Source of the DNA: Mytilus galloprovincialis | Taxonomy: Eukaryota > Mollusca > Bivalvia > Mytilida > Mytilidae | Direction of reading: 5' to 3' | Assembly: GCF_965363235.1 (NCBI RefSeq) | Contig: NC_134845.1 | Location: 8,370,101 to 8,434,100, forward strand | DNA length: 64,000 nucleotides | Shown: positions 3,733 through 63,500 of the stretch, in pieces | Layout: each line of letters opens with the position of its first letter | Position numbering within the stretch: position 1 is the stretch's first letter | The notes under the pieces: model-generated | What the model saw: the letters and a program-made list of their open reading frames with translations, nothing else | The model's database searches: none | Told to the model about the DNA's origin: nothing | Made by a program: the position numbers and the translations under genes

Positions 3733-5063
3733 TAGATATAGGATTATTGCATGCAGTGCTAGCATTGATTTCCTTAAAACAAGTTTATTAACCATGTTAA
3801 CAATGATTTAATGTAGTTATTGGTTAAAACAAATATAAGTATGGACCAAATTAAGTACACCTTTAGGGTGCGCTCGACTTTAGTGACTCAGCACTAGCTG
3901 TGTTTTGGAATTTATAGGTTGCTTAGAACTTTTTGTAAACAATGAACACCAGCACATCATAGAAAAGCAAGTAAGTAATCTATGTTTCAAATTTTATAAC
4001 AGAAATATCTGTATTTAAGGCTGTGGATTTTCTATAAAAATCTTGGTTTATTTGCCACAAAGACCTCTATTTCTATTAAATGCAATGAAACAGTCAATAA
4101 TAATGCTTTGCATTAAGTTTCTTGGTATATAGGTACAAAATGGCCTATCTCTATTATTCATTATATATGTAGTTATCATACAATTGAAGTTTGAAAAATT
4201 CGTACATGTACAACAATGGCTACAGAAAGGGTCATAAACCATAAGAGGGTTACACTAGTTATAGCTATATAATCTTCCCTGAGGCCCTCATCATGAAAAT
4301 AAAAAAAAATGCAAACATATACATTGCATACATCAGTATAAAAAGTCAAGTATGATAATACAATGTAATAACATTCAATACAACTTGATAAAATGTTATG
4401 AAAAAATAAACATGATGATCAGTTTTCAATATTATTTATACAGTAATCATGGTAATAGGTTGATTTCAATAAATGATCTGTTATTTTGTATTTGAAAGAA
4501 TTAACATTTGTAATATATCTTATCATATACTTGTATAAAATATTACTTAAATTTTACAGTTCAATAACATTTGAAAATATCATAAGGCTATGAAAGGATT
4601 ACTAGGTTTATTGACCAGATTCCTTGGAATTTCAATAGCGGGCTGATAAAGGTGCCTTTATTGACTGCTTCCGGTATGTTATCACATGCCTTTCCGTTAA
4701 TTTCCGTGACGTTTATCACATGCAACTTCGTGCATTTCCGGAAATTTGTATGAAAACGACAACAGAACGAGGAAAACGGCAAGTGATAAGACTTTTCCAA
4801 AAGTGGTTGAGGAGCAAAAATGAATTAAGTTAAACTTGTTTTGAAAGACATAAATGAGTTGACAATATTATTGAAGAACACAATAATTATTGCGAAAAGA
4901 TCAATGAATGCTTGTAATAGTATGCAATAAAAACAATTAAAGTTATTAATAAGATTTTTTTTTGGTTGTCTGTAAATATTATCTGAAAATGCAAAGATAA
5001 ACAAAATTAAATTTTAATAGTTCTTGTCTGTATTTCTTCTGCTGAAGTATATGATAAAAAGAT
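3733..5063. other. AT-rich spacer
   Basis: No gene supported. Short ORFs on either strand have no recognisable domain. Confidence 0.4.
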
Positions 5064-5199
5064 AATTACATGTCATTTTTCATATCAGACCCTTTATCGG
5101 CCCTCGTTCATGATATTAGCCCTCGAGCCTGCGGCTCTTGGGCTAATATCATAACCTTGGGCCGAGAAAGGGTCTGATATGAAAAATGCCATGTAATAA
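5064..5199. repeat. palindromic foldback MITE-like hairpin
   Basis: About 60-bp arms, nearly perfect inverted copies, meet in a GC-rich centre. The left arm includes 'TTTTTCATATCAGACCC' and the right arm 'GGGTCTGATATGAAAAA'. The flanks ATTACATG and CATGTAAT also pair. The whole unit could fold into one hairpin. No coding potential. Confidence 0.7.
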
Positions 5200-6233
5200 T
5201 CTATACTTAACAGTATTGGCAAATTATTCTACAAGAATGGTCATGATGGTCCAGAATACTTAAAAGATTTTTTGAACAATTCTGTTTTTGGTTTAGGGAG
5301 TATGAGGGTTCCTTGATTGAACAGCATTTCTCAAGGGGTATGGATTTTTGTCTATAACATAATGAAACTTGTTACATATAGTAAGATATGATGGGGCATC
5401 GTTTTGGGGGAAGACGGCTTCAAGCCGTCAATCCCCAATGGGGTTGACCAGAGTGACATTCCCTCACATCATTCATTTTGTTTTTATAGTGTGGAAAACC
5501 CCCCCAACAAATCTTACTGAGATTGATGAGAAGGGGAGACACAAATGAATATATATAGATTGACTGTAAACACTTTTTTTACACATTTCCCTTCTGTTTC
5601 TCTTGAAATTATCGTATATTGAGCTCTCCTTTACACTATTTACGTTTCTTTTACAATCCGGAAAAATCAGTATGACGAGATATTCTAAATATATCCAACC
5701 TACATTATATTTTATAGTGACGTCATTGTTGGAATGCCACACTACGTTGAAGCAGGGATATCCTTCACTGGTTATTTAAATCATTGAATGATTACATGTG
5801 ATTCTTCCGGCGGGAGTCAACATCTCCCGCTTTTAAGACCCTCTTCCGTCCCTCCCGTTAAAATTTGAAATCTTCCGCTTTTTGAGAATGTCAACCTCGA
5901 AAAATCTTCAATAGAAATTTTTGTTTACAAAATTGATACTGACAGGGAAAAAGTCCGAGAAACTCAAAATTCATATCGGAAAAGTCCGAGAAAAACGGAA
6001 GTTTCCTTTAACTGTTTTGATGTATAAACAGCAATAAAAGAGTATTGGCAAAATACCTGGTGATCAACTAGCAAGTTTAGGACACATGTCTGGATGATTA
6101 AAAGTGAAATACTGACAATGGATTAATTAAAGTTGTATAAACAACGACTTTTTTGTGTACTGTTAAAAACATTGAACAGTTATATTTCTTAACCTCAAGA
6201 CAAATGTCTTAATGATCTCAAATATGATATGTA
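5200..6233. other. spacer, nothing recognised
   Basis: AT-rich sequence without a supported gene. A small GC-richer stretch at 5400-5440 contains the dyad GACGGCTTCAAGCCGTC. Confidence 0.4.
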
Positions 6234-16163: not shown

Positions 16164-19100
16164 GTAAGACTTGTTATTGCTTACAATACTTAGAATGACA
16201 TTAATTTGCATGTAATACAGATCTAGAACAACTGTGGTAATTGAGACAGGAACCCAGAAACAAAATTATATGATAAATAGACGTCTATGAATCATCACCA
16301 AGTTGTCCAAGATAAACAAACATACACATTTTATTTCAAGCACTAAATTGCTCTTTAGTCTATAGACAACAACAAATTTATAGAAAAACTAAATATATCA
16401 AGCATCAACACAGAATTTTCAAATGAACAAAAATAAAGAACATTAGGATGACCACTGATAAGGTGTCATGCATACATGTATACAGGTTCAGGTACATGTA
16501 TCAAGGCAGTGATGCATGCAATTTTATAAGATGCATACTTTTATTTGTACATATTGATAAAAGGTTGAATTTAATTTTTTAGTTGACCACAGCTGTTATT
16601 TATTATATGAGGATTTCACCACAACATGGAATAGATGCAATGGAACACATCCCAGATTATGATCTTTTAAGATTTATTGGAAAGTCTGTGTTTGATAACG
16701 TTCAGATATTCAATGGAAGAATAGGAAGTAGAGCTAACAAAAATTTATACATAGAAGGAAACAACAGCTCTGTAAGTCATTAACATATTATATTATTTAT
16801 GCAAATTATGTGTAAAGGTTTTGGTGTGTTTTTTTAGAGATTAGTTGAAAGTTAAAGTCATATATGAAACCAGAGACATAAAAAAAAATTGATGATTATA
16901 CGATATGTTTGCTTAAGAAATGATAAAATTGTGCAGAGAAAACTAGGTTTATGATATATATGTTAGCGGCAATAAGTGAAATTAGGCATTAAGCTTAAAA
17001 TCCTAGGCAATAAGCTAACGCCTAGGCATTAAGTCTAATGCCTAAATGATGTTAGGCATTAGTCTTAAATCCTAGGATTTAAGCTTAAATCCTGAAAAAT
17101 GTGTCCAGGCATTAAGCTTAATGCCTAAAGTATAAATGCGAGTAAATAAAAGACATTTATTCAATTAATTTGTTACATAATAAAATTACGAGAACTGAAG
17201 TTTAAAATGTCATCTACTGGAAATAAAATCACAGATAAAATATGTTTTTATATTAAAACTCATCAAATATTACTTATAAAACATGAAAACTTGATACAAA
17301 TGTGTGTTAAAATCATTTGTTATCACAAGTTGTTGAACTGTGGCACCGACTATTGCACTTTCTCCCGTTTTTCTTGCATTTGCAGCGGTTACTTAAACAT
17401 ATAGTTTTACAAGAACATTTGAAAAATTCTTGACCTCCGGATAATGACTGATGGGTTGCTGCCTCACGTACACTTAAAGTTGTTTTACAATTAATTTCCT
17501 CTTCCAGAATTAAATTTTGTTTACATATTCCCATCTCAATTGTTCCAAATGTTCCTAGAAGTTGTCCAAATCTTGTAGCCACAACAGCATTGCCCTTATC
17601 ATTGACCTGAAAAAATAAACAGATAAAATTCTTTTGCAGGCAGTTTGATTATTTTCATTAAAATATCGATAAAGAATTATATCTGAGAGTAGAATTAATT
17701 AGGTATTTGCATTTTGCGAATTATGAAATGAATTCGTGTTGCATATGGTGATTTTCAACTGTCTTTGTGGCATTAATCCGCATCTGATTTTCGTCAGGTG
17801 CAGATTCTGGATTTTTCATAAAGTGGGGGAGGGGCCTGGTCTTATAACCCCCTTCCTACATTAATATAAACATATTTACTTTTACTGGTTTTCTTTCTGT
17901 TTAGTATTTAATAAACATGACATATTAAATGATGCAGTCAAACTTTTGATTAAATATCTTACCTCAATGACTCGGCCGAGTAAATTTCTACTGTCACCCT
18001 TCCCTCTATCAAACATAGGTATTGGTACGGCAACAGTTTGCCCAACTTCTGCCGTCCCTAGTTCCTTTTTGCTCCTGGCTATCATAGTGTTTGCCTGCTT
18101 CAGTTGACTGTCCATGGCTTCAGAACGATGTCGAACTCTGTTGGTATCAATTTTACAATTTGGACATACCACCTTTGAACTGTATCCTTCTTCACTTACA
18201 GTAGTACCACATATAACATGAATGTGTTTGTCACATTTAATACACATATGAGCTCCAGATGTATCCTTTTCACATACATAGCACTGTAAGACATTCTGAA
18301 AAATAGTTTCCATAAATAATAAGGTAAAAAAAATCATTTGGTGTGGTCATACATCAGTTTTTAAAATTTAATTACAGTTTTGTGGTAATAAAGTGTTTTT
18401 GTTCAAAATGATCAAACACTCAATTTAAAAATACGAAGATGTGGTATGCTTGTCAATAGGACAACTGTCCGCCAGAGACAGAATAGTATATAAGATAAGA
18501 CCTATAGGTAACCATACGGCCTTCAACAAAAACTCATAGTAAGCAGACTCTTTTTTTCTTAAGCTCCGAATATCTTTCCTGTGGTTTATCTGTTATATAT
18601 TACATGGAAGTACTTTAGTTCAAGCTCCCGCCAGGATTAAAGAGTCGTTTTTTTTTTAAATATTTCTGAGACTATTTTCAACTTACCTTTTGCGTTTCAT
18701 CAGTGATTGGAGTAGAAGGTTCTACATTTGGTTCTGCAATAGATTCTGGTATATCAGAGGCATCGACAATGTTTTCTGTTTTATTTTCAGTTACAGGTTG
18801 ATCATTTACAGACTCTGTCTGGAGCTTAAGTAAGTCCTCTTCCTTTTCTAAGGTCATCAATATTTCTTTCGGAATTTTGGTTTCTGATGTTAATCCAATT
18901 GTTGCACATTTACCAAATAAATCACGTGAAACGTTAGCATATCCATTATTTAGTTGTTTTATCATGCGATCTCTGCCGCCATGACCTGTTTCTTTATGTG
19001 CCTTTTCCATAATACCATAGAGTTCCTCTAGGAAGACATAAATTTTGAAATTTCCCTCGTCATTCTCGCTGACTTTAGTTATCAACCTCTCAAAACCACC

Positions 19101-28262: not shown

Positions 28263-28423
28263 TTATTATTTTATATTTATACATATATTAAAAAAAAATG
28301 ACAAAAGTATACATTGTTTATTGAGTAAATTAAACTGAAATTTGTTTTAATCATTAAAATCTTAAAAAAGGAGTATTGAGAACATAAAAGCTGGTTTTTA
28401 TATAGATTGCTTATATTGGAACT

Positions 28424-28505
28424 AGCGTCACTGATGAGTCTTGTGTAGACGAAACGAGCGTCTGTCATACTAAATTATAATCCTGGTACCTTTGATAACT
28501 ATTTA
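28424..28505 (+). ncRNA. hammerhead-ribozyme-like relic
   Basis: Contains the conserved core words CTGATGA and GAAA around a 4-bp stem II (GTCT/AGAC), then a very short stem III and a GTC cleavage triplet. Stem I (GCGTCA with TGTCAT) has mismatches, so activity is doubtful. The same text continues as in the copies at 41631 and 46664. Confidence 0.6.
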
Positions 28506-28849
28506 CACATTCAATATGTTAGCATTATGTATAATGGGTGTACATTTTATTGTTATTCAAGATGTTTTATGCTGAAATTTTATGCATGAATAAAAAACTA
28601 TTTAAGCTGAAATTATATCATTTTGTTAAAAAAAAGTCTTATTAGTTGGTGTTATCCAAAACTTTCACTTGGCATTGTCCTTGTCTTTAAAGTTTAAAAA
28701 GATTTCTTATCTGACATCAATTCATCAATTTTACCCAACTTGGTTGTCCCCAGAATGATCATTTTGACATTTCTATTAAATGGATTGAGCCATTTACCAA
28801 TTGCCAACCATTCTTAGGGATAATACTGATGAAGAAAATATATTGTTGT

Positions 28850-29842: not shown

Positions 29843-29892
29843 TTCTGTTTAATGTGAACACTGACTTTTAAATTTAAATTGTCTTTAAATAA

Positions 29893-30960
29893 ATAAAGGC
29901 AACAGTATTAAACCGCTGTTTGAAATTCATAAATCAATTGAGAGAAAAAAACAAATCTGGGTTACAAATTAAAACTAAGGGCAACACATCAAATATAAGA
30001 GAAGTACTACAACAACAGAAACACAACATTAAAATGTAACACAAACAGAAACCAACATACAATGGCCTTTTTCCTGACTTGGTTCAGAACATTTAAAAAA
30101 AAATGGTGGGTTGAACCTGGTTTTGCGGCTCGCCAAACCTCGTGCTTTTATGGCAATGTTAACATCAAAATGACAACATTACATAACAGGACTATAGTAC
30201 AAATAAATGCAAGAACATTCAGGACAAATAAATACACAAATAAACATTACAATAGGACATTTCAACATGCTAATAGTTACAATACGTGAATTTCGGCTAC
30301 ATAAGACTCACCATTGACGTTAGATAACAAAAGTAAAGAAAGCAAAACAGGTACAAAGTTGAAGATCATTGGTGACTCAAAATTCTAAAAAATGATTCCA
30401 AATACGGCTAAGGTTATCTATGCAAGGGATAAGAAAATCTTTAGTAAATTTATAAAAACAATGACCATATAATTAATGTCCATGTCAACATCGAAGTGGT
30501 GACTTACCACAAAATAAAAACAAACACGTAAAACAAAAAACGAAAGCACATAAATCGGTACAAAATAACCATTGCCACCTACAGAATAACGCTATGCTAC
30601 AAAATGACGTCACAGGTAAAAGTGACGTCACGATAATTTTGACAATTTTGATATAGTTCTAAATCAGGTTTGTAATTATGGCATTTAATGTATAATACAA
30701 CAATTACAATTTAATTAATCTAGAATTGTGTTAGAACCAGATAATTTATTGTATTATCTAGCTATCTAGGTATTAATTTTTATAAATAAAACTATAAAAC
30801 AAATAAATCGTATACGTTAAGTTGCCCCAAACTAAATTCTTATAAATGAACTGGGTGATTAATTATCTTTACTTTTACATACGAATAGAATATAAAAGTA
30901 ACCCCTTCCCTTCAGTAAATATCGTCAATGTCAATTGGATTTTTATTTGGATTGATCTAT
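29893..30960 (-). repeat. 1-kb mussel interspersed repeat, copy 1
   Basis: Starts 'AAGGCAACAGTATTAAACCG' and includes the complement of 'AACCAGGTTCAACCC', a tRNA B-box-like word. A related copy is at 41980-43075 and a shorter one, opposite strand, at 59576-59995. The copies share the TGACGTCAC stretch and the 'GAACTGGGTGATTA'-type stretch further on. Class unresolved. Confidence 0.55.
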
Positions 30961-38831: not shown

Positions 38832-39349
38832 GAAATAACGCCTGATGAGGTGATGACAACTAGACATTTTACAGCATTATGGTGTTTGTAGCTTGAATAT
38901 GTTAAACTCTGGTTTAAAATACTTAAACCTTTCCCAATTAAAAAATCATTAAGATCTATGAAGAATCTGGTAGACGGGTTTCGATCTCTTAAAAAAATTG
39001 GCATTGTTCTGGTAATGCTATCTCTAGGTGAAAAAACATTTATAACTTCGAATTCAGCATGAATAAGGTTGAGCCAGGTTGTAAAATAACTAGCATAAGA
39101 AGAAACAGAAATGGAAAATCTATCAGCTACATCCCTTATATACAATCCAAGACGAAGTCTCATCGTCACAGCTAAAAGTGATCAATGGGCTAAAGTCTGG
39201 AAGTCAACATCATAACTCTATTTTTACTGGATGTATTTTCGTCTCCCTTCCAGTACTGCATTTTAGAACTCTTTGTACATAGGTAACTGAAACAGAATCA
39301 AATAATTTCGAATGTCTTATGCAAATTAAAATAATAAGAATAAGATAAG

Positions 39350-40800
39350 ATAAAAAAAATCCTTAGTTTTTCGAAAAATTTTAAGTTTTGTAAACAGAAA
39401 ATTTATAAAAATGAACACACAATTGATATTCATGTCAACACCAAAGTGCTGACTACTGGGCTGGTGATACCCTCGGAGATGAAACATCCACCAGCAGTGG
39501 CATCGACCCAGTCGTGTTAAAAGTTATCAACGGTACCAGATAAGTGATAAGGATTATTGTTCAGCTGATTTATTATTTTAAGCTGATATCGTATATTCAA
39601 CAGATTACATAGGGATTTGAATTGAGACTTTGTGTTGTGATTTGTTTTCTTTGTGTCATTTGAACATGGATTTTATGTAATTTACACTACCTCAATATAA
39701 CACATCGACAAACATGAATCCATAAAAAAAAAACCCGGCAACGCCACAAATGGTGGCAGCGGTCAGATAGCCATACACAAAGTTTTATATATTCGTAATG
39801 AGGATAATTATTGGAATATCAGTGAGATTTAAACTGTTTAGATACATGTTAGAATTTACAGTACAAGTTTTGTTTTAGAAATTTTGGACTTTCCTTTGAG
39901 TTCAGTATTTTTGTGATTTTACTTTTTATTATTAATGGAGATGGACAGAAATAGAACTGACTGTAATATTTATCCAATGGATTTTACGAATGTTGGAGAA
40001 GAGACTATTTCAGGAGAACAAAACTTGAGAAAGCCCGTATTCACCAGGATCATTTACACCATCTCAAGATTTCCAAGGGGTACCTGATTCAATTTTAAGG
40101 ACAATATGAGATACCAGAACTGAACACCGAAAGGTCCCTAGGACCCCATTGCCGACGGTGCCGACAACAAACCATTAGATGGTTTCGACGGTAGCAGTAA
40201 TTGAAAGGATGAATCTTTTATTTCGAGCACACTGTCAGATATAAACCAGAGACAACAAAATGCTATTCAGCCAGAACTGATCATAAATGGGAGAAATTCG
40301 TTCTTAGATGGATTTGGTTTATCTTAAGTGTGATACTTGTGATCAGATGGTTTTCTCAAAATGAGGAAAAACGTATTTTTTTAAAGGTAGAATTAGCCGA
40401 TAAAAGTTTAGATGCTGTTAATATTAGCAATATTTACCATCAGAAATCTGTACAAAAAAACATACCTGATTACTTCAAAAATAAAGCTACACCTGTTATT
40501 TCTTATACTTACACGAAGTCTATTGCATCCAAGATTTTCAACCACAAGAGGGTTTGAGAGGCCTTAACCTAAAAGATGTGAAATCCAAGCCTCCGGATTG
40601 TTCATGTGCATCGTCACAATACATGTATAGTCCAGCTGGTAGTGTTATTACTAGTGACCTTGGCATCGTTAACAATAAACAACTAAGATAGTTAGCCAAG
40701 GGACCAAAATATAGATTTCCCTGGAAAAAGAACTTCAAATTACTGATGGATGCAGTTGAGGACTATGCAAGAAAATGGATAAAACGCGAACCAGACACAC
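39350..40800 (+). mobile_element. Penelope-like retroelement, left fragment
   Basis: Begins inside a terminal repeat (39360-39545) that is inverted relative to the copies at 41425 and 46370. It continues into the N-terminal part of a reverse transcriptase protein: VITSDLGIVNN and the motif KNFKLLMDAVEDYARKWIKRE near 40735-40795. The same text occurs inverted at 45540-45080. Truncated before the catalytic domain; several breaks. The class is judged from wording common to Penelope-like proteins of aquatic invertebrates. Confidence 0.6.
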
Positions 40801-41039
40801 CTGGATTTGTTTTTTTCTATCGATTTATGAATTTTGAACAGCGGTATACTACTGTTGTCTTTATTTCTGTGACATTTCCTTTTCATGACATTGTTTGTTG
40901 GCTGAAGCAAAATGTTATACTTTCTGTGGTAACTCTACTGATAACATTTCTAGTTTTGGTAATTGTGAAGTTATTTATAGAGGAAACCTCGAGACGTTTG
41001 AAACACTTTGACAACCAGAATGAAGGCAGAGGAAGGCCA

Positions 41040-41410
41040 ACCTATACCGTACGTAAGAAATTGACTTTCGACCAGAACATTCCACATATTACATGTATTA
41101 GGGACAATGCAAGGACTCTACCGATAAACTTATCATCACCTTTGCAAGTTAAAAGATCCGTAGTTCAGGTAAAGAGGACATTAAGAGGTAGTAACAATGA
41201 TGTGCTAGCAGACTTTCTACGTTACTTTGAAATCATTGCGAAACTTAATGCGTGGAATGAAGAGATAAAAAGGTTAGTGTTCTTTACTACTTTGTGAGGA
41301 TACCAAGAAACATTTGTGCACGGATTGTCTACAGATATCCAAATCCGATGGCAGATTTTAATAGATAAGATGGAGTTATGTTTGGACATTCAAACATGAA
41401 AGAAAGCTAC
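41040..41410 (+). pseudogene. gag remnant of an LTR retroelement (fossil)
   Basis: A short stretch resembles the gag region of Ty3/Gypsy-like elements. Broken fragment with no flanking LTRs seen. Old by context. Confidence 0.4.
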
Positions 41411-41424
41411 CTTTCGTCCCCGAG

Positions 41425-41735
41425 GGTATCACCAGCCCAGTAGTCAACACTTCGGTGTTGACATGAAAATCAATAATGTGGTCATTTTCATAAATTTCTT
41501 GTTTACAAAACTAAGGATTTATTATCCCAGGCATAGATTACCCTAACCGTATTTGGCACAACTCTGGAAATTTGGATCCTAAATGCTCTTCAACTTTGTT
41601 CTTGTTTGGCTTTATAAATATTTTGATATAAACGTCACTGATCAGTCTTATGTAGACGAAACGCGCGTCTGGCGTACTAAACAGTCACATTCGAGAATAA
41701 GTAAAGTTCGGTAAAAAAAAAGACCAGACGACGCA
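41425..41735 (+). repeat. Penelope-like terminal repeat with hammerhead core
   Basis: Shares 'GAGGGTATCACCAGCCCAGT' through 'CTCTTCAACTTTGT' and the hammerhead block with the 46370-46740 copy. Ends in the AACAGTCACATTCGAG segment that also occurs at 43083-43138. Confidence 0.65.
41631..41677 (+). ncRNA. hammerhead ribozyme motif (core base changed)
   Basis: Stem I ACGTCA/TGGCGT pairs fully (one G-U). Stem II GTCT/AGAC has a 5-nt loop. Box GAAA is intact, with a minimal CGCGCG stem III and the cleavage triplet GTC. The first box reads CTGATCA instead of CTGATGA, which should disable it. Confidence 0.75.
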
Positions 41736-41979
41736 ATGGTCGTCCCTAATACATGTAATATGTGGAATGTTCTGGTCGAAAGTCAATTTCTTACGTACGG
41801 TATAGGTTGGCCTTCCTCTGCCTTCATTCTGGTTGTCAAAGTGTTTCAAACGTCTCGAGGTTTCCTCTATAAATAACTTCACAATTACCGAAACTAGAAA
41901 TGTTATCAGTAGAGTTATCATAGATACTATAACGTTTTGCTACAGACAACAAACAATGTCATGAAAAGGAAATGTCACA

Positions 41980-43075
41980 GAAATAAAGGCAACAGTAGTA
42001 TACCGCTGTTCAAAATTCATAAATCGATAGACAAAACAAATCCGGGTTACAAACTAAAACTGAGGGAAACGTATCAAATATAAGAAAACTACGACACAAC
42101 AGAGACACAACACCGAAATGTAACACACACAGATAAGATCTATTATGTAACAATGGCCATTTTCCTGACTTGGTACAGGTCATTCTATGAAAAAATGGTA
42201 GGTTGAACCTGGTTTTGTGGCATGCCAAACCTCCATCTTTAATGGCAGTGTTAATTATAACATTAAAATGACAACATTTCACGACAGGGTTACAATAAAT
42301 AAACAGATAAATGGGACAAAAAATAGGACAGAGAAACAAACGAATAATAGCCATCAAAATATACAAAAGGTAACAGATTAAGAAAAATTTGATACGCCAG
42401 ACGCGCGCTACGTCCACACAAAACTTTGCTCAGATGTAAAAAGTTTGAAAGCCATAACAACTACAAAGTTGAAGATCGTCTAGGACCAAAAGTTCCAAAA
42501 AGTTTGTTTTTTTATAAAATGACTATTTAATAGATATACATGATTAAACTGAAATGGTGACTAGCTATAGAATAAAAACGAATACATTACAAAATCACAG
42601 CCCTGTTAGTCATAGTCAATGCAACACCCAAAGTGACGTCACATTTAAATTTCTATAACGTTTTCCAAAAATAAAGAAAGAATTTTGATGAAATTCAAGA
42701 TAAGATTTGTATGACTTATCTAACTTAAATTAATAACAGTGAAAATTATAATACTAATTAATATTTAATTGAAGTAAAAATTAGATAATTAATTGTAGTA
42801 TCTAGATTTGTGGATGTTTCTTCTGATCAAAACTGCAAACCAAATATATAGTGTAAATTTCGTTGATCAAAATTAAATTTACCAACTAAACTGGGTGAGT
42901 AGTTATCCACAACACAACACACGAATACAACATAAAAAAATACATTTTACATCTACAAACGTTAAGACATTTGACAAAATCTGATGGCAACAACGAACAC
43001 AACATCAAAACCCAAACAAATTAATTTGGGATGGAAAGGTACAGTGCTAGTCTTAAAGCAATACGAATTCACACT
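41980..43075 (-). repeat. 1-kb mussel interspersed repeat, copy 2
   Basis: Same order of segments as 29893-30960, ending with the extra block AACACAACATCAAAACCC that is also near 59790 in complement. Confidence 0.55.
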
Positions 43076-43086
43076 CAGCAAAACAG

Positions 43087-45540
43087 TCACATTCGAGAAT
43101 AAGTAAAGTTCGGTAAAAAAAAGACCAGACGACGCAATGACAAACCACAATCTAACACGTGGTAAAAATGTCCATAGTTAGTTTGGACAAAGATATATCG
43201 TATACATTGATCAACCAGTTCGTGATGGTAACCGTAAAAGGACAAGGTACGATAAGGCTCGTTTTTGGCCCCCATATTTTCTCATTTTTCAAATTCGGTT
43301 TTGTAATGCTACTTATCGCGTTAAAATATTCCCTTAGGTTTGAAATTTGTTTGGCTGAACTTCAATACCATTAATTTCAGAAAATGGCTGATAAAGGGGC
43401 AGCAAAAACGCCAAAAGAAGGATAATTGACGATTTTTGGTCATTGGTTCTAAAAATTCAATAGGGTGCGCCTACGTGACCCAGGGAAAATTACGTCGATT
43501 TAGACAGCAAAAAAAGTACTTATGACATTGGAATAAAAAAATCTCTCGGTCACGTTGGCGCAGGCACTTAAAAACTTGGACAAAACACCTGAAAAGTGAA
43601 TAATAAACACAGTATTTGAATAATTAAAGAAAGTTTACCCCCTCATCCCACCCAGTTGCTAAAATAGGTGTTTTTGAAGTTCATCTTACCAAACTTCAAG
43701 CATTAGGGAATATGTTAACATAAAAATTAGCTTACAAAAACAGAATTTTGAAAAATAAGAAAATAGGGTGGCCAACAACAAGCCTTATCGTACCTTGTTC
43801 TTTACGGAGAATCATTTTTTTTTATCCGTCCTCCATATAACTTTGTAGGAGCAGTTTCTGCGTTAGGAGTACACTCCTGTATATGAAGTCCGTATAGTGT
43901 GAACATGCACGAGAATAACGTATTATTTGAAATGTAAAAACCACACGAAGGGGCAGACGGTATGTTACTGCTGAGAAATGGGAAATTGATAATTGGGAAG
44001 TTGCAATCGTCCCGTTTATCATAGATTTTCATGTGAAGTCTCCCATCTGTGTCAATATTAAGGAAAAGATCAAGTTATGAAACAGTTCTTATATCTTTAA
44101 TTTCAAGTTCACTGAGATATATGAAATGCAAGTATTGGCTGAAATATGGGTTATTCAGCGATAGGACATCATCAATATATCGGAAAGTGAAATTAAAGAA
44201 TTTCGCAAGATGCTTTTTCTGTTTGTCTTATAGAAGGGTTTGACTAAATTCTGCTACATACGAGTACAAAAACAAATCGGCTAGTAAGGGTGCACAATTT
44301 TCTGGTAAATTCGGTGTGGTTCTTCACAAAATATGAATTATTGTAACCCAAAACAAGAAATGTGTATCTACAGTTTCCATGTTATAGAAATAGCTCTGTT
44401 TAATGAGATGGTGGAGTCGAACTTTCAACTGAGTATGGGGAATAGTAGTGTAAAGGGTAAAAAAATCGAAAGACTTTATGTTGCTGCAAAATTGCAAAGA
44501 TTGTGATCGAAGATTAAGCAGTAGATCTTTAGAATTTTTACGAGTCAACATCTGGTTAACACCATTGGTAGACTGTATCTCATCACAAATTTTTTTGAAG
44601 CCCATCTTTAACTGTAGAAGAATAGTAGTCAGTATTTTAGAAAGATGTTTAGTCGAACATTTTGACGATCCATCTATGTATAGTCTTTATATGGAGTTTT
44701 GTGTAGTTTTTGTATCCAGTATAATGATGGTAAATTTTCTTTGATGTTGGTACCAAAAGAAAGAAGGACAGATTTGTGATTTTGTAAAATCTCGTCCTTG
44801 GTAAATAATGTTAAGGAATATGTAGTATTACCAGTTGTTCTATTCATTTCAAGCTCTGTTGTGAGACATTACAAATAATAGTTTTTACACATGAAGACAA
44901 CATAATTAGAGGCTTTATCTGCTGGAACAACGACATATTTGTCATGCAAAGAAGATAAAGCCACCACAAAATCCGGATTCTTGAAAGGGTTTGTAACTTT
45001 TGTGCTCATAGAACATCTTAACTTTTGAATGCGCTTCTGAATGCATGATCGAATAGCTTTGATCCATTCAGACAAAGTGTCTAGTTCTGGTTCGTCTGGT
45101 TGGTGCTTCATCCATTTTCTTCCTCAACTGCATCCATCAGTAACTTGAAGTTCTTTTTGCAGTTGATGGGCTGGGGAATTTTATATTTTGGTCCCTTGGC
45201 TAACATTGTCTTAGTTGTTTATTGTTAACGATGCCAAGGTCACCAGTAATAACATGATCAGCTGGACTATAGTTGTATTGTAACGATGCAAATGAGCAAT
45301 CCGGACGCTTGGGTTTCATATCTTTGAGGTTAAGGTCTCTCAAATCCTCTTGTGGTTGAAAATCTTGGATGCAATAGACTTGGTGTAAGTATACGAAATA
45401 ACAGGTGTAGCTTTATTTTTGAAGTAATCAGGTATGGTTTTTTTGTACAGATTTCTGATGGTAAATATTGCTAATATTTACAGCATTTAAACCTTTATTG
45501 GCAAATTCTACCTAAAAAAATACGTTTTTCCTCATTTTTA
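43087..45540 (-). mobile_element. Penelope-like reverse transcriptase element, right copy
   Basis: The minus strand codes fragments of a reverse transcriptase: DKYVVVPADKASN near 44930, a KSFDFFTLYTTIPHTQLK motif near 44460 (the 'DFSTLYTTIPH' landmark of this family), C-terminal pieces near 43830-44030 and FYGYHHELVDQ near 43215. A MITE splits the last part. Several breaks; inactive. No GIY-YIG domain was recognised, so Penelope-like is the best but not certain class. Confidence 0.65.
43242..43798. mobile_element. MITE inserted in the reverse transcriptase
   Basis: Inverted ends ACAAGGTACGATAAGGCT and AGCCTTATCGTACCTTGT. The reverse transcriptase reading resumes across it (LRK on one side, FYGYHHEL on the other). 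Non-coding, 557 bp. The target duplication is not clear because the flanks themselves are inverted-looking (CGTAAA/TTTACG). Confidence 0.75.
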
Positions 45541-46369
45541 GAAAACCATCCGATCACAAGTATCAAACTTAAGATAAACCAAATCTATTCTATCTAAGAA
45601 CGAATTTGTCCCATTTATAATCAGTTCTGGCTGAATAGCATTTTGTTGTTTCTGGTTTATATCTGACGGTGTGCTCGAAATAAAAGATTCATCCTTTCAA
45701 TTACTGCTACCGTCGAAACCACCCCAAATGTTTGTCGTCGGCACCGTCGGCAATGGGGTCCTAGGGACCGTCCGTTGTTCGGTTCTGGTATATCATGGTG
45801 TCCTTGGAATGGAATCAGGTACCCCTTGGAAATCTTGAGATGGTGAAAATGATCCTGGTGAATACAAGCTTCCTCAAGTTTTGTTCTCCCGAAACAGTCT
45901 CTTCTCCAACGTTCGTAAAATCCATTGGATAAATATTACAGTCAGTTCTATTTCTATCAATCTCCATTAATAATAAAAAGTAGAATCACAAAAATACTGA
46001 AATCAGAGGAAAATCCAACATTTTTAAAATACAACTTGTAACGTAAATTCTAACATGTATCTAAACAGTTTAAATCTCACTGATATTCCAACAATTATCC
46101 TCATTACAAATATATAAAACTTTGTGTATGGCTATCTGGTCGCTCCCCATTTGTAGCGTTGCCGGTTTTTTTTTATGGATTCTTGTTTGTCGATGTGTTA
46201 TATTGAGGTAGCGTCAATTACATAAAATCCATGTTCAAATGACACAAAGAAACAAATCACAACACAAAGTCTCAATTCAAATCACTATGTAATCTGTTAA
46301 ATATACGATATCAGTTTAACATAATAAATCAGCTGAACAATAATCCTTATCATTTATCTAGTACCGTTG

Positions 46370-46740
46370 ATAACTTTTAACACCACTGGGTCGATGCCAC
46401 TGCTAGTGGATGTTTTGTCTACGAGGGTATCACCAGCCCAGTAGTCAGCACTTTGGTGTTGACATAAATATCAAATGCATGGTCATTTTTATAAATTTTC
46501 TGTTAACAAAACTTTGAATTTTTCGAAAAACTAAGGATTTTCTTATCCAAGGAATAGATATGTATAGATAACCTTAGCCGTATTTGGCACAATTTTTAGG
46601 AATTTTGGATCCTCAATGCTCTTCAACTTTGTACTTGTTTTGCTTTATAACTATTTTGTTATGAGCGTTACTGGTGAGTCTTATGTAGATAACACGCGCG
46701 TCTGGTGTACTAAATTATAATTCTGATACCTTTGATAACT
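46370..46740 (+). repeat. Penelope-like terminal repeat, right copy
   Basis: A longer version of the 41425 repeat, running from CACCACTGGGTCGATGCCAC to CTTTGATAACT. It lies upstream of, and on the opposite strand to, the reverse transcriptase of 43087-45540. Confidence 0.65.
46664..46710 (+). ncRNA. hammerhead ribozyme motif (decayed)
   Basis: Same frame of stems as at 41631. The first box reads CTGGTGA and the second box is altered (GATAACAC). A relic. Confidence 0.6.
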
Positions 46741-46827
46741 CTCTTCAAGAACACAGTATCATCTAAACAGGTCTAACTAACAATCTCCACACTCTGATCT
46801 CTCTCGCATCCCCTTATATAGATAATT

Positions 46828-46997
46828 ACAGGCGGTTCCTCGACGGTTCAAAAGATGGGGTACCAGGCGGTTCTAAAGATACCGGGTAGTACCCTGACGG
46901 TTCTAAAGATGGGCTACCGGGCGGTACCCTGACAGTTTCAAAGATCGGGTACCGGACGGTACCCCGACGGTTACAAAGATGGGGCACCGGGCGGGGA
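46828..46997 (+). repeat. ~40-bp GC-rich minisatellite
   Basis: About four diverged copies of a unit around 'TACCCTGACGGTTCTAAAGA' and GGGCTACCGGGCGG, much richer in GC than its surroundings. Confidence 0.75.
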
Positions 46998-47140
46998 ATT
47001 TCAATAATATAGATACCGTTCAAATAGATAAAAAGACCGGGCGAAACCCTATAGAAATGTAATTCAACCTGAATGTATTATTAAAAAAATATGTTACATA
47101 ATAATAAACTATACTATGAACCTAAAACCGCTACAGTTAA

Positions 47141-48438
47141 ACACATGAAAAGGCCAGAATTTTTCATTAAACATTTGCATAAGACATTCAAAATTATTTG
47201 ATTCTGTTTCAGTTACCTATGTTCAAAGAGTTCTAGAATGCAGTACTGGAAGGGAGACGGAAATAAATCCAGTAAAGATAGAGTGAGGAAGTCGATTTCC
47301 AGACTTTAGCCCATTGAACAGTTTTTAGCTGTGATGAGTAGACTTCGTCTTGGATTGTATATAAGGGATGTAGCTGATAGATTTTCCATTTCTGTTTCTT
47401 CTTATTTCAGTTATTTTACAACCTGGCTTTACCTTATTCATGCTGAACTCGAAGTTTTAAATGTTTTTCCTCCTAGAGATATCATTACTAGAACAATGCC
47501 ATATTCTTTAAGAGATCGAAACCCGTCTACCAGAGTCTTCATAGATTGTACTGAAATTTTTATTCAGAAAGTTTCAAGTCTTTTAAACCAGAGTTTAACA
47601 CATTCAAGCTACAAATACCATAATGCTGTATATTTCTAGTTGACATCACCCCATCTGTGGTATTCTTGATCTACTAGAGCTTGGTGATAGTGTTATGGCT
47701 GATAAAGGATTTACCATCAGTGCTTTTGTAGCAAAACGTCAGTGCGCTTTTAATAATATTCCACCATTCAGAGGTATAAAGAACCAATTTTCAACAGCGG
47801 AAGTATTTCAGACATAGGAAATAGCACAACTTTGCTTTCATGCTGAAAGAAGTATTGAACGTGTTAAAAACTTCCATATTGTAGAGGGAGTCCTACCATT
47901 GTCAATTGCACCACTTAGTACCAAGACATGTTGGTGGTTGACAAATCTAGATGTTCTATTAGTTCAAGATAATATAGATGATCTTTCATTCAAATCTGCT
48001 GTACAAATCGCAAGGTTTTTCCCCTGTTTACCTTCTAAAATCTTGCCAGGTAAAATTCAGTCTATTATACTGCAAAATCTTTAAAACAAGAAAAAATTGT
48101 CATCAATAGCACAATAATACTTTTTAAATAATTAACATTAAATTATTATTTATTTTTCTGATTTAAATCAACATGTATTAAACTGAATGTGAACTTTGAA
48201 AGCATAAATAGGTATTATTTTTAACCTGAGCATTGTGATGTTTAATATATGTATTAATTGTAAATCTTTAAATCTTTAAATCATGTTTGTGATGAAAATA
48301 TTTAAAAATATCATACTTAAATTTTGACATGATAATATTACAAACTAAATTTTGAAATGCTGAAAGGTTAGAAGTGAATAATTTTGAGTGGCCTTGTGAC
48401 ACTTAACCTTGAGCTTGCTGTTGATAATAAATATGTGT
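47141..48438 (+). mobile_element. DDE-type DNA transposon, right copy, TTAA-flanked
   Basis: 1298 bp between direct TTAA repeats (47137-47140 and 48439-48442), with terminal ACACAT/ATGTGT. The plus strand codes a DDE_Tnp_4-like transposase: LGLYIRDVADRFSIS and PSTRVFIDCTEIFIQK in the 47331-47639 frame, then DSVMADKGFTIS, and NLDVLLVQDNIDD near 47960. Stops and frame changes divide it into about four pieces, so it is dead. TTAA duplication is typical of Kolobok and piggyBac; PIF/Harbinger transposases look similar but usually duplicate TWA. Confidence 0.8.
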
Positions 48439-55177: not shown

Positions 55178-55434
55178 TTGTTCACGCATCGGTGACTATA
55201 TAATGGAATTTGATGCGACTGTCATACAAGTGAGAGGTTTAGCTAGCTATAAAACCAGGTTCAATCCACCATTTTCTACATTTGAAAATGCCTGTACCAA
55301 GTCAGGAATATGACAGTTCTTGTCCATTTGTTTTTGATGCGTTTTGTTATTTGATTTTGCCATGTGATTATGGACTTTCCGAATTGATTTTCCTCTGAGT
55401 TCAGTATTTTTGTGATTTTACTTTTTGATCAGCT
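55178..55434 (+). repeat. SINE-like repeat, copy 1
   Basis: A block of about 255 bp matching 61777-62027. Contains AGGTTCAATCC, close to a tRNA-type B-box (GGTTCRANYCC), about 80 bp from the start, and ends 'TATTTTTGTGATTTTACTTT'. A fragment lies inverted at 58075-58185. Confidence 0.6.
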
Positions 55435-57541: not shown

Positions 57542-60500
57542 ATGATTTATTTTTCGTTCTTCTTTTTTGCTGTTTCTGCAGGTAAGATTTTTCTATCTGG
57601 TAATGATAAAACTATGAGCTTGACTATGGCAAGCCATTCTCGTCAAAACTATGTTTAAACCATTTTTCGAACAATTTACACACTGAGAATTACAATTACA
57701 CACTGAGAATCAAAAAATACACACTGAGAATTAAAAAAACACACTGAGATTTCATAAAGACGCACTGAGATTACAAAAATGAAAAACACACACTGAGAAT
57801 TGAAAATTACATTGAGAATTGAAAATTACACACTGAGAATTGAAAATTACACACTGAGATTTCAAAAAGACACACTGAGAATAAATAAACTGAAAACACA
57901 CACTGAGAATTTGAAATTGCACACTGAGAATTTAAAATTACACACTGAGATTTGTGCACACTTTGTTTGCGCACATATCTAATTAGCATATTTAATCTGA
58001 ATCTATTACAAGCTTAAAACAACTAGGGGACAGAACTCGTTAGTCCTTCGATTTGATTCCAAAAAATAGTAACATCACAAAAATACTGAACTCAGAGGAA
58101 AATCAATTCGGAAAGTCCATAATCACATGGAAAAATCAAATAACAAAACGCATCAGAAACGAATGTCATATTCCTGACTTGGAATAATTATAAAATTATT
58201 TATAAAAAAAACCTTTAGAAATACAAGAACAAGAAAAACACCTCTTACTCTTATTACAAAATATATCAAATGGTGAAAAACTTTATTAAAATTATAAGAA
58301 AACATTGGAACAATCTGCAAAAAAAACCAAAGAATGCAGTGAAATGTTTACTCAAGTGTTTATTATAGCATATAAACGTACCAAAAATATAAAAGATTAC
58401 CTTGCAAAATCAGGGTAACAGTTGGAAGACTTTTGAAAAGGGACCCATGCTTAAACGGTTTTAAGTAAAAAAAAATCCCGATATACTGGTAGTAATGATC
58501 TGAAATATAGGCAACAAACTTATGAATATGAGAGATGTTAATATAAAAAAGAAGATGTGGTATGATTGCCAATGAGACAACTATCCACAAAAGACCAAAA
58601 TGACACAGACATTAACAACTATAGGTCACCGTACGGCCTTCAACAATGAGCAAAGCCCATGCCGAATAGTCAGCTATAAAAGGCCCCGATAAGACAATGT
58701 AAAACAATTCAAACGAGAAAACTAACGGCCTTATTTATGTAAAAAAAATTAACGAAAAACAAATATGTAACACATAAAAAAACGACAACCACTGAATTAC
58801 AGGCTCCAGATTTGGGACAGGCACATACATAAATAATGTGGCTGGGTTAAACATGTTAGCGGGATTAAGTCTTGAAATTTATTACGAATGTTGGTTGAAG
58901 GAATCGCATTTCATTATGACAAGAGTTCTTGAGATCAAGATTTTAATCTGTTGAATTATTCATCTCATAAATATTCATTAGTAATTTGCATATTAATCTC
59001 AGTGTGTAATTAACAATTCTCAGTGTGTGTTTTTCAATTTATTTCATCTCAGTGTGTCTTTTTAAATTCTCAGTGTGTAATTTTGAATTCTCAGTGTATT
59101 TTTTTTAAATCTCAGTGTGTAAATTTGAATTCTCACTGTATTTTTTTTAATCTCAGTGTGTTATTTTAGGTTTTTAAACTCAGTGTGTATTTTTTTCGAA
59201 AAAAAGGTTTAAACATAGTTTTGACGAGAACGGCTTGCCATACTTGACTTTTATCTAAGCTGTATTTGACAAAACTTTTAGAAAGTTTGTTAAAATCTTA
59301 AGGCTGATCTACCTGAGGAATATATCACCTGACCTGTCTTTGACAAAGCTTTTAGGAATTATTGGTCCTTAATTGTGTTCAACTTCGTACCTTATTTTGC
59401 CTTGTTTTTGCAAATTCAAAATTTAATCCTGCAATATATGTTGAGTTTGATTGTATGTAGCATATAAATGCAAATTTTGTTATTGACTACAATTGTGAGA
59501 CATTGAAAAAAGATTGAGTGATATGAATTTTATCATTTCTATGTAATATTTAACATTGCCATTAAAGTGCGAGGTTTGGCATGCCACAAAACCAGGTTCC
59601 ACCCACCATTTTTTCCTTTAAAAATGTCTTGTACCAAGTCAGGAATATGGCCATTGTTATATTATAGTTCGTTTCTGTGTGTGTTACAATTTAACGTTGC
59701 GTCGTTTGTTTTCTCTTATTTTTGAGTGTAAATTGACATTGCGATAAGACGTGTCACGGTACTTGTCTATCCCAAATTCATGTATTTGGTTTTGATGTTA
59801 TATTTGTTATTCTCGTGGGATTTTGTCTGATGCTTGGTCCGTTTCTGTGTGTGTTAGTTACATTGTAGTGTTGTGTCGTTGTTCTCCTCTTATATTTATG
59901 CGTTTCCGTCAGTTTTAGTTTGTTAACCCGATTTTGTTTTTTGTCCATGGATTTATGAGTTTGAACAGCGGTATACTACTGTTGCCTTTATTTATCATCT
60001 ATTTATTAGGAACGGTCTTCTCATGTCTGGGAATATATTTTTAATATGTGTCCTTCGATTGGCTACACCTGTACACCTGTGCGGAATTCACTTTCATCCA
60101 AGTGTTTTCATGTGCGTTTGACTGGAGTGTCAGGTTTTTAATTCCATTTTAGTGTTAGAAGAGGGGCGTAAAGGGGGATATCTGCACGGCAGAACGCGAA
60201 ATAAAATTGCCATTTCACGATGGACGAACAATTAAAAATTTCTTGAACGTTGATCTTTTTCCCGAAACACGGTGAATAACGAACCTTTTTCACGGCTGCA
60301 CGTGATATAAAAATGGAAAAACACGTTGCACGAAAATAACCCTTTTCCACCCTCTTAAAAAGAGATAACAATTTATCGTTCGCAGATACGTTTAGTCATG
60401 AACAGCTGTTTTTGAAGCTTTCTTTGTTATATTTCATTTTGTTTTTATCAGCCAGGAAAAGAAGTATTTTAGATCTAAAATTTATTTTTAAAACAAATGC

Positions 60501-63500
60501 TTTTTGAAGTTCAATTCAGTCCAAGCAATAGCGTTTGATTGATTAATAAGCATTTCATTCAGAATTGTTGTTTTACTAACATATCCTAATTTGTTTTATT
60601 TAAAATTTTATTTCATTGATGATAATTCAAATGAAAAGTATATTATAAGGAATTTCAAGTATCATATAGGCGGTCCTCCTGCGATTGATTACATTATAGA
60701 ATTTCATAAACCTTGCATTTTTCATGAATATTTGTTTTATTTAACTGTTGGAGGTATTTCTAATTAGTTACAGCATGTAACATATTACTTTGATATTCTT
60801 TCTTCCTTTTCTGTAGTTTATAATTAGACGTGTATGTTAAAAAAAGTAATAGAAATACAAAAATTTTATTAGAATTTTGGTACTGAAAGCATTTGTGCCT
60901 TTTAGTTTACTTAAAATAATGTGTTTTACTAAAAACTAATGTTTAACGTTTCGAATTTATTTTCAAACAAAATTAATATAACTATCCTATAGTTTGCAGT
61001 CAGTATAAGTAAAACGTTACTAAGATTTGTCAGGTAAAATAATTGTTTGTTGTTGATTGTTTTGAAACTATTTTGAATGCTTTGATTTTTTTTTTTTTAC
61101 ATCAGAACGGTGAGTAAAGGATGTGACAGAATTATAATAAAGTAAATTACAAAACTACATGGACTTTTCAGAATTGAAGATTGTGTCACTTAATGCTTCG
61201 GGCAACAAGTGGTATTCGACATTGCGGAACAAAAATAAATTGATGGGTGTTTAGAAAATAATATGAGTTGGTTCAGAAGGAAATATAGAGGGTCTGTTTA
61301 AATGTTAACAAAATGCAAATAACTCGATCCGAAGAAACGGGATATTGTAATTGTATTTCGTATTCTAGAAGTCTCCTTTTAAATGTTTTCTCGAAGTTTT
61401 TTGTCTACGGTGTTCTTATGGTTTTCGGGATAGCTGCATATACTGAAATTGAAATTTGACAGATTTGAAAATTTTATACATAGAACACTTAAGTTATCTG
61501 GAGTTGTGGGATTAACACTTTTATTAACTAAATATTATACTATATTGAAAATATTCTGTACAATTAAGGTTAAGAGTAGAATTATTATCTGATCATATTT
61601 GTATGTATACTTTTCTTACCTATTTTGTTAATTTCTCTGACAAACTGCTTTTGGATACAGCTCTGTTGGAGTTGAGATTTTTTTCATCATGTCTATTGCC
61701 GAATACAATATCCTTATGTCCATATTTTTATTACTGTCATGTCTATTGCCGAATACAAAATCATTATGTCCATATTGTATTGTTCACGCATCGTTGACAA
61801 TATAATGGAATTTGATGCGACTGTCATACAAGTGAGAGATTAAGCTAGCTATAAAACCAGGTTCAATCCATCATTTTCTACATAAGAAAATGCCTGTACA
61901 AGTCAGAAATATGACAGTTGTTATCCATTCGTTTGATGTGTTTGAACTTTGATTTTGCCATTTAATTGGGGACTTTCCTTTTTTTGAAATTTCCTCGGAG
62001 TTCAATATTTTTGTGATTTTTCTTTTTTCTTATCATTATCATGTATATTGCCGAATAAAAAATCTTTATATCCATATTCTTACTAACGTCATGTCTATTG
62101 CCGAATACAATATCATTATATCTATATTCTTATTTACATCATGTCTATTGACGAATACAAAATCATTATATCTATATTCTTATTAACATCATGTATATTG
62201 CTGAATACAATTTCATTATATCCATATTCTTTTTATTATCATGTCTGTTGCCGAATACAATATCATTATGTCCATATTCTTATCATTATCAAGTCTATTG
62301 CCGAATACAATATCATTATATCTATATTCTTATCATTATCATGTCTATTGCCGAATACAATATCATTATGTCCATATTCTTATCATTATCAGGTCCGTTA
62401 CCGAATACAATATCATTATATCCATATTCTTATCATTATCATGTCTATTGCCGAATACAATATCATTATTTCCATATTCTTATCATTATCATGTCTATTG
62501 CCGAATACAATATCATTTTATCGGACCACAGAAGAATTATCACGTTGTGATTGGTTAAATGCCGTCACGTGGTGACCCCCTATGAGACCGTATTGGGTTA
62601 GTAAGTTTCATATGGGGTTCATGACGCGTTAATTGCGACGTCATCTATTACCGTTGTTGTGTTTCATTGTTTATTTTTCAACAAAACGCCGCAGAAAAAG
62701 TCCAGCGTCCGATAAATTCGTTATACGGTTAACTACTGACCCCCTACGGATCCATAGAGGGTGAATAAAATTCATAGGGGACTCGGCCTCCGGCCTCACC
62801 CCCTATGGATTTTACTAACCCTCTATGCATCCGTATGGGGTCAGTAGCGAACCATATAACTTATAATATCCATATTCTAATTATTATCATGAGTACGTTC
62901 CTGGTAAAGAACAGTATTAAATACAATGTGTTTAACTGAAAACAAATGTTGAACGTTTTGAATTTATTTTTAAATAAAATTAATATAAATAGACAATATT
63001 TAGCTATTAGTGTAAGTCAAACGTTACTGAGAATTCCGATATTGGTTTCAGAATCTTGTTGATTGTTTTGAATGTTTTGATTTTTTTGACATCAGAACGG
63101 TGTGTAAGGGATATGACAGAATTTTAAAACACGTTTATAATGAAGTAGATAGCAAAACAAAATGTTTTTCGGAATTGAGGGCGAAGACGGGTCAATTATT
63201 GCCAAAAATGTATTGATGTTAGTTTAGAAAAATATGGGTTCAGAAGGAAATATAGAGGGGCTGTTTAAATGTTAATACGATAAAAAAAAACTTGGATCCG
63301 AAGAAACGGGTTTAATCCTCCCACCCCCAAACTCTGCCTTTAACTTCTACGTAGAATTCAATTTTATAGAAAGCTTAGATAAACATCAAAAGTTTTTCTT
63401 CTAGAGTGATCTAAAGATTTTCGTATTAGCTGTTAATACTGAAATCGAAATTTGACAGATTAGACAATTTTATACTTGGATCATATAAGTTATCTGGAGT

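Follow-up and report, generated by a model that had tools for sequence, protein, structure and literature searches.

Worn hammerhead ribozymes in a Mytilus galloprovincialis locus and the probable descent of mussel retrozymes from Penelope-like elements

A minimal type I hammerhead ribozyme (HHR) in the repeat of Penelope-like elements (PLEs) is said to have been described by Cervera and de la Pena in 2014 and by Lunse et al. in 2017, and PLEs with permuted domains, in which GIY-YIG precedes the reverse transcriptase (RT), were reportedly treated by Craig et al. in 2021 under the clade name Naiad. Another setting of the ribozyme is the retrozyme without long terminal repeats (non-LTR retrozyme), which in the mussel Mytilus galloprovincialis consists of ~350-390-base repeats with ~5000 type I HHR copies; that report includes circular RNA and the slow self-cleavage of a clone (Cervera & de la Pena 2020, PMC7229834). 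It was also proposed there that PLEs mobilise retrozymes, on the grounds of co-existence, shared HHRs, and a tandem habit. In Poseidon PAc of Anolis carolinensis, a stem-loop within the RNA is where reverse transcription begins and where genomic insertions end, and insertion in vitro still takes place when the HHR is mutated (PMC11167929). The present analysis concerns one stretch of the M. galloprovincialis genome, hereafter the window (64,000 nucleotides; assembly GCF_965363235.1, contig NC_134845.1, positions 8,370,101 to 8,434,100, forward strand), which contains three HHR blocks and the debris of a PLE.

Both HHRs in PLEs and mussel retrozymes are already published; a preliminary description made from the letters of the window had noted that hammerheads are known in PLEs and retrozymes. 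What appears to be new is the relationship of the two, comprising descent, a shared end, and a covarying hairpin. Searches of an open-licence library, judged by title and the start of the abstract, yielded no paper on the descent of retrozymes from PLEs or on a shared hairpin and end, which does not establish priority. We consider it likely that the three blocks are decayed non-autonomous retrozymes, descended from a PLE by loss of its open reading frame (ORF) and of parts of its untranslated regions (UTRs), and the PLE probably still copies the retrozyme.

Hammerhead relics and the retrozyme family

The three blocks all lie on the forward strand, at 28425-28468, 41632-41675, and 46665-46708, each starting one base to the right of the place given in the preliminary description (28424, 41631, and 46664), whose reading of them as type I hammerheads with a very short stem III is borne out. 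At Rfam gathering thresholds, cmscan of the whole window returned no match. At E <= 10, RF00163 (Hammerhead_1) scored 31.1 bits at 41632-41675 (E 9.9e-4) and 28.8 bits at 28425-28468 (E 0.0059), both below the gathering threshold of 34 bits, and gave no match at 46665-46708; the Infernal search with Rfam models that had been suggested as a check thus recognizes two blocks below gathering and leaves out the third. A 25-base core pattern has two window matches at <=3 mismatches against 0.00 expected from 100 shuffles, and the exact 32-base HHR core occurs 8,870 times in the genome (reversed control, 0), which together exclude a chance origin of the blocks.

A distinct defect had been described for each copy, and this was confirmed. 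The core of the 28425 copy is intact and its stem I pairs at 4/6 positions (counted by hand), while the 46665 copy pairs at 6/6 and has both boxes changed. The 41632 copy shows the full stem I pairing claimed for it (6/6) together with a single core change, CTGATCA (G8 to C), which is the same change that inactivates the PAc hammerhead of Anolis by abolishing its cutting (PMC11167929). In none of the three are the conserved core and stems I and II all complete. Two further decayed HHRs, beyond those originally described, are present on the reverse strand at 42438-42391 and 30320-30280. Single-strand folding of four HHR sequences was uninformative (z 0.8, 0.2, -2.5, and -0.9). The three blocks are genuine but worn type I hammerhead relics.

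In the genome at large, the RF00163 search (74 scored of 224,653 candidates) yielded 37 matches at E <= 0.001, 29 of them over gathering, with the best at 42.4 bits. Among the 100 core copies listed, a number lie in head-to-tail arrays with ~355-base spacing. Retrozyme tandem units measure 345-364 bases, with variants shared by units of the same array, at a GC content of 0.385, and the longest frame in three units has 86 codons. The repeat thus shows the unit features of metazoan non-LTR retrozymes (150-450-base tandem units, a type I HHR, low GC, and non-coding sequence). In the length of its unit, its type of HHR, and its number of copies, the window repeat agrees with the published mussel retrozyme, to which it appears to correspond, and the earlier link of the blocks to retrozymes holds.

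For closer study, 60 copies were selected regardless of HHR state from the 100 places that were listed first for a 24-base anchor lying upstream of the HHR, with array neighbours skipped. The core is intact (10 bases, position 7 excluded) in 42/60, and an Rfam HHR match at E <= 10 was obtained for 17/20 retrozyme loci, one of the 20 being over gathering. Better copies had been predicted to exist elsewhere, and these 42 copies and the 29/37 genome matches over gathering are such copies.

Homology with a Penelope-like element and a shared end point

The RT fragment of the window gave 150 protein matches (150 of 10,510 genome candidates scored), several of which show open frames of 1,007 residues and recur in tandem at intervals near 4,550; tandem PLE copies with pseudo-LTRs are spaced 4,549 and 4,550 bases apart in one array (C13), and similarly in others. 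One such tandem period, L069, served as the reference PLE. Its ORF of 1,005 codons plus stop combines, as expected of a PLE, GIY-YIG (PF01541, 23.1 bits, over the cut-off of 22.6) with an RT (PF00078, 19.3 bits, under the cut-off of 29.6; a YIDDV motif is seen) in one frame, GIY-YIG being N-terminal to the RT. The L069 repeat contains an HHR-like stretch in RT sense with an altered core, for which no Rfam HHR match was obtained at E <= 10. The AlphaFold2 model of the PLE RT has a mean pLDDT of 30, PDB sequence searches gave no meaningful match, and the NCBIfam search was uninformative. As a side observation, a stretch of the pseudo-LTR that precedes the HHR (L069 1819-2060) is tandemly duplicated in the PLE lineage of L073-L078 and L081.

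When the reference retrozyme unit (L009, 356 bases) is compared with L069, two blocks align in sense. Unit 137-429 aligns to L069 1844-2137 (68%, 293 bases, E 4e-36), and unit 70-145 aligns to L069 2647-2724 (73%, 76 bases, E 1e-8), the latter being a 5′UTR block that ends in L069 at the ORF start (2727). Against a second PLE lineage the unit reaches E 1e-38, and the best E among block shuffles of the unit against PLE is 0.002 (n=200). The blocks are collinear in the two families, the pseudo-LTR with the HHR being followed by the 5′UTR up to the ORF start, and the retrozyme therefore corresponds to a PLE repeat that lacks the ORF, part of the 3′UTR, and ~510 bases ahead of the end.

A tree built on the block common to both families (midpoint root, no outgroup) places six retrozymes as sister to the PLE copy L191 (support 0.986) and then to L161 (0.981). 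The L191 block, with its two pieces joined end to end across an insertion, is 87% identical to a retrozyme, as compared with 72-79% for 18 other PLE copies. L191 was obtained with a targeted pattern for an intact core and a PLE-type loop, which has 8 genome matches; of the three that were read, one is a PLE and two are retrozyme-like. It has, all in sense, the C-terminus of the RT, a retrozyme-like repeat, an HHR with an intact core (RF00163 33.2 bits, just below gathering), and the PLE 3′ end, and its tail type is represented by 308 copies at <=3 mismatches. The insertion occupies about 1043-1490, within the pseudo-LTR, and its ~450 bases include an internal near-duplicate. By its collinear sense homology and the sister position of L191, the retrozyme is an ORF-less relative of PLEs.

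The two families also end at the same place. All 12 of the 12 PLE copies end at L069 2650-2654, in one case (L080) with another PLE piece directly after. Of the retrozyme sample, 43/60 have their end at the GATAACTATT tail (although L112 looks spurious among them, and L089 and L090, with the same flank, probably represent a single insertion); in 12 the sequence passes into the following unit, and from 5 the tail is missing. Aligned retrozyme pieces behave likewise, 27/40 of them ending at unit 71-78; their starts are scattered, with 11/40 at unit 298-319. Fixed 3′ ends with variable 5′ starts are a signature of target-primed reverse transcription. Within arrays, the sequence of both families continues with (T)CACCAC, the base of a 5′UTR hairpin that folds with z of -3.1 in the retrozyme, -2.6 in the PLE, and -2.0 in a window copy. 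Among PLE 5′ loci the hairpin is complete in 14/20, with the same hairpin letters in 13 of those across two lineages; the other six, two of them truncated inside the hairpin, were dropped. Two PLE copies, L177 and L188, are truncated inside the hairpin and joined to other sequence, an arrangement that a halt of reverse transcription in the hairpin might leave.

The hairpin was examined for covariation in 14 rows (2 PLE and 12 retrozyme, two of the latter from the window) with the structure taken from PLE alone. The proportion of paired cells is 93.5%, against 35.7-48.4% in slid controls, and 7 pairs are changed on both sides versus 2.6 in shuffles (0/500), although the two PLE rows are nearly identical and these compensatory changes are essentially one PLE-retrozyme comparison. 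By analogy with the internal stem-loop start of PAc, the hairpin is the probable start of reverse transcription in the PLE.

The homology could also be read as an ancient pseudo-LTR common to PLEs and retrozymes, with another reverse transcriptase, such as that of a long interspersed nuclear element (LINE), now copying the retrozymes. This would suit the large divergence between the families (68-73% in the blocks), and the mobilisation of retrozymes by PLEs is itself a reading of sequence; however, both families end at the same point relative to the same hairpin, the compensatory hairpin changes point to one continuing RNA-protein contact, and no poly-A run is present at the listed retrozyme ends, so that we regard such a change of enzyme as unlikely. 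The reverse direction, in which a PLE lineage captured a retrozyme repeat, is more doubtful still. The midpoint rooting of the tree, without an outgroup, would allow it, but the retrozymes form a single branch beside L191, with L161 next, and in the 15/20 stretches downstream of RTs where an HHR is detectable, it lies in RT sense and its core is decayed. A further alternative is satellite DNA dispersed through unequal exchange or rolling circles of DNA, the hammerhead being a passenger. It would produce head-to-tail arrays of 345-364-base units with variants shared within arrays, but it is very improbable where 43/60 copies end in single flanks, 12/60 enter the next unit, and independent insertions have fixed 3′ ends and varying 5′ starts.

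Window inserts and the strand of the hammerheads

The features of the window that belong to the two families are as follows, retrozyme matches being given relative to the doubled 356-base unit.

41409-41681, forward strand: retrozyme copy truncated at both ends, unit 105-400 (blastn 84%, E 4e-78), with the HHR at 41632-41675
46358-46747, forward strand: near full-length retrozyme monomer, unit 53-433 (blastn 84%, E 8e-108), with the HHR at 46665-46708
about 46381-46445, forward strand: 5′UTR-type hairpin of the 46358-46747 monomer (fold z -2.0)
28412-28508, forward strand: 5′-truncated retrozyme fragment, unit 337-434 (blastn 90%, E 2e-26), with the HHR at 28425-28468
39353-39539, reverse strand: 5′ portion of a retrozyme, HHR absent, within the left arm of an inverted duplication (blastn 88%, E 2e-54)
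43801-45542, reverse strand: decayed Penelope-like RT region (blastn to L069 87-88%, pieces 45542-44535, 44775-44297, and 44299-43801)
42085-43239, reverse strand: 3′ region and pseudo-LTR of the same PLE in RT sense (blastn to L069 1108-2388, 63%, E 2e-109)
42391-42438, reverse strand: the window PLE's own decayed HHR, on the RT strand (blastn of the retrozyme unit to 42504-42357, 71%, E 4e-17, and alignment)
30280-30320, reverse strand: further decayed HHR in a PLE-type repeat at 29889-30898, reverse strand (blastn and alignment)
38870-47630, no strand: imperfect palindrome, ~8.8 kb long, whose arms at 38870-40762 (left) and 45121-47630 (right) are inverted relative to each other (inverted-repeat pairs)

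The preliminary description found it odd that the ribozyme strand is opposite to the adjacent RT. This is literally so in the window, where the RT fragments are on the reverse strand and the three blocks on the forward strand, but the junctions described below mark it as a local arrangement, and the HHRs that belong to PLEs are in RT sense wherever detected. An HHR-like match was found in 15/20 RT-downstream stretches, every one in RT sense with the antisense strand at shuffled background; the remaining 5/20 loci had no HHR-like match and were dropped before the counts. The HHRs of 12 separately taken PLE ends and of L069 are likewise in RT sense, both strands having been scored, and altogether the PLE's own HHR is on the RT strand in 28/28 copies in which one was found. 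A retrozyme HHR lies within 1.5 kb of an RT in 3/30 RT loci, two antisense and one sense.

Neither junction of the window inserts is shared by a scored genome match elsewhere. That at 41682 (query 41580-41790) is spanned only by the locus itself (40 of 1,527 candidates scored), and that at ~46358 (query 46200-46500) was recovered whole from the locus and its 94% inverted copy alone (40 of 2,463 candidates scored), a local inverted duplication having doubled this antisense retrozyme junction. An antisense HHR as part of the PLE design was accordingly rejected, with no scored match elsewhere to either junction and the PLE's own HHR in sense. On this junction evidence, the 41632 and 46665 copies are retrozyme insertions separate from the neighbouring PLE, so that the tie to a Penelope-like element drawn earlier stands as kinship of PLEs and retrozymes, the two copies not being terminal repeats of this particular PLE. 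A single PLE with terminal repeats bearing an antisense hammerhead, that is, a fixed composite whose ribozyme acts on the opposite transcript, could explain why two forward-strand HHR repeats flank a reverse-strand RT and why the antisense junction is repeated in the left inverted arm, but it is hardly credible when neither junction recurs among the scored matches elsewhere, the relic is always in RT sense in the 15/20 stretches, the 12 PLE ends, and L069, and the retrozymes near RTs are of mixed strand.

For the window itself, the outcome is ordinary and consists of decayed repeats. Three retrozyme inserts would have decayed there, two of them beside PLE debris, and the inverted duplication doubled one antisense junction. 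The seven decayed PLE pieces of the window gave no Pfam RT or GIY-YIG match. Besides 29889-30898 (reverse strand), more PLE-type fragments are located at 55223-55312, 59530-59997, and 61825-61924. The palindrome arms are mostly 90-97% complementary, the left arm lacking ~600 bases that include the HHR part of the retrozyme, and a further inverted pair, formed by 40811-41105 with 41742-42036, reaches 97% complementarity. A 42-base direct repeat (41679-41720 and 43081-43122) is 100% identical, other direct repeats there being 83-87%; one of its copies abuts the truncated retrozyme, which suggests a recent local event. Long near-perfect hairpins at 5061-5201, 16975-17099, and 62740-62834, whose microRNA family matches are far below gathering (on both strands for 5061-5201), are probably miniature inverted-repeat elements.

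Ribozyme state, proposed mechanism, and comparison with known systems

The ribozyme core differs in state between the two families. Among the 28 RT-linked PLE copies, none keeps all 10 core bases and between 4 and 8 are kept (position 7 excluded), and no Rfam HHR match was found in 20 PLE loci at E <= 10. Across 20 distinct PLE sequences, variation in the core exceeds that in the stems (p 5e-4) and that in the flanks (p 0.006), and stem II shows one G-C to A-T change common to 3/22 sequences. One altered form of the core has 304 copies, by a pattern that excludes the intact core, and a second altered-core pattern has 670, with one intact CTGATGA among 100 matches listed; the altered PLE cores look like founder states. 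In hammerheads such core changes abolish cutting, and with the missing model match in addition, these PLE cores would be inactive.

The retrozyme HHR had been expected to be conserved beyond the rest of the repeat, which was not clearly observed. Conservation of the HHR versus the body is 0.941 versus 0.954 in 31/60 copies and 0.968 versus 0.956 in the 29 of these with a complete HHR, a small difference that is expected if copies decay after insertion. A much larger apparent difference (0.98 versus 0.80) was rejected as an artefact of the unrelated flanks of 5′-truncated copies. Changes in HHR stem I among retrozymes are mostly one-sided, and the pairing evidence comes from the 5′UTR hairpin, compared between retrozyme and PLE.

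Several of these points weigh against descent from, and copying by, the PLE. Selection on the HHR is unseen at copy level, HHR and body being similarly conserved, and in PLEs the stems and flanks of the HHR do not differ significantly in conservation (p 0.12). An intact core with a PLE-type loop exists in the genome (the 8 matches above), so that cores can be called dead in PLEs for the sampled lineages only, and the L191 identity depends on joining the two pieces of the block. In the hairpin, which offers essentially the single comparison already mentioned, further pair types do not exceed shuffles (88/500), and the two families diverge over the ~20 bases that precede the shared end, whose identity is therefore defined by position relative to the hairpin. 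Units are slightly more alike within arrays (0.945, 12 pairs) than between them (0.920, 124 pairs; 17 units), which fits circular templates, weakly.

With these reservations, the following course may be proposed for the descent from PLEs. The PLE protein would bind the 5′UTR hairpin and start reverse transcription there, in which case the retrozymes would use the PLE enzyme. The HHR would cut ~43 bases upstream of this start. A linear monomer produced by the cut would therefore yield only ~43 bases of complementary DNA and could not serve for copies extending across the cut site (the anchor was chosen such that all 60 sampled copies start upstream of that site). With the linear monomer excluded, the template would be a ligated circle or an uncut oligomer, and travel round a circular template would give tandem arrays. 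From sequence, we infer both the HHR cleavage and the mobilisation. The abundant sampled PLE lineages appear to have been amplified with a dead HHR core, which would make HHR cutting dispensable for them.

The finding bears on two questions, namely whose enzyme animal retrozymes depend on and which function hammerheads have in PLEs. The contrast between an intact core in most of the retrozymes sampled and an altered one in the PLEs sampled suggests a role of the ribozyme in forming circles, as distinct from PLE transposition itself. In a more general and tentative form, on which we stop short of even confidence, animal retrozymes of this kind might be PLE parasites with two inherited RNA devices, a start hairpin recruiting the PLE enzyme and a hammerhead making the circular template, the ribozyme being essential only to the parasite and its core having decayed in abundant autonomous PLE lineages. 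As relatives in one genome with a shared end and a covarying hairpin, the two families make both questions testable with one protein and few RNAs.

Among the known systems, the permuted PLEs of the Naiad type resemble L069 in having GIY-YIG before the RT, a likeness of domain order alone. Compared with the PLE hammerheads of the 2014 and 2017 studies, the catalytic core is altered here in 28/28 sampled PLE copies; L191 keeps it. PAc has a C-terminal GIY-YIG and a start within the ORF, whereas the mussel PLE has an N-terminal GIY-YIG and insertions that end just upstream of a 5′UTR hairpin, at which its start is placed only presumptively (PMC11167929). The proposal that PLEs mobilise the mussel retrozyme is made, in the available text, without sequence descent from a PLE, a shared insertion end, or a shared hairpin, and the retrozyme described there and the window family are alike in their type I HHR, repeat length, thousands of copies, and low GC (PMC7229834).

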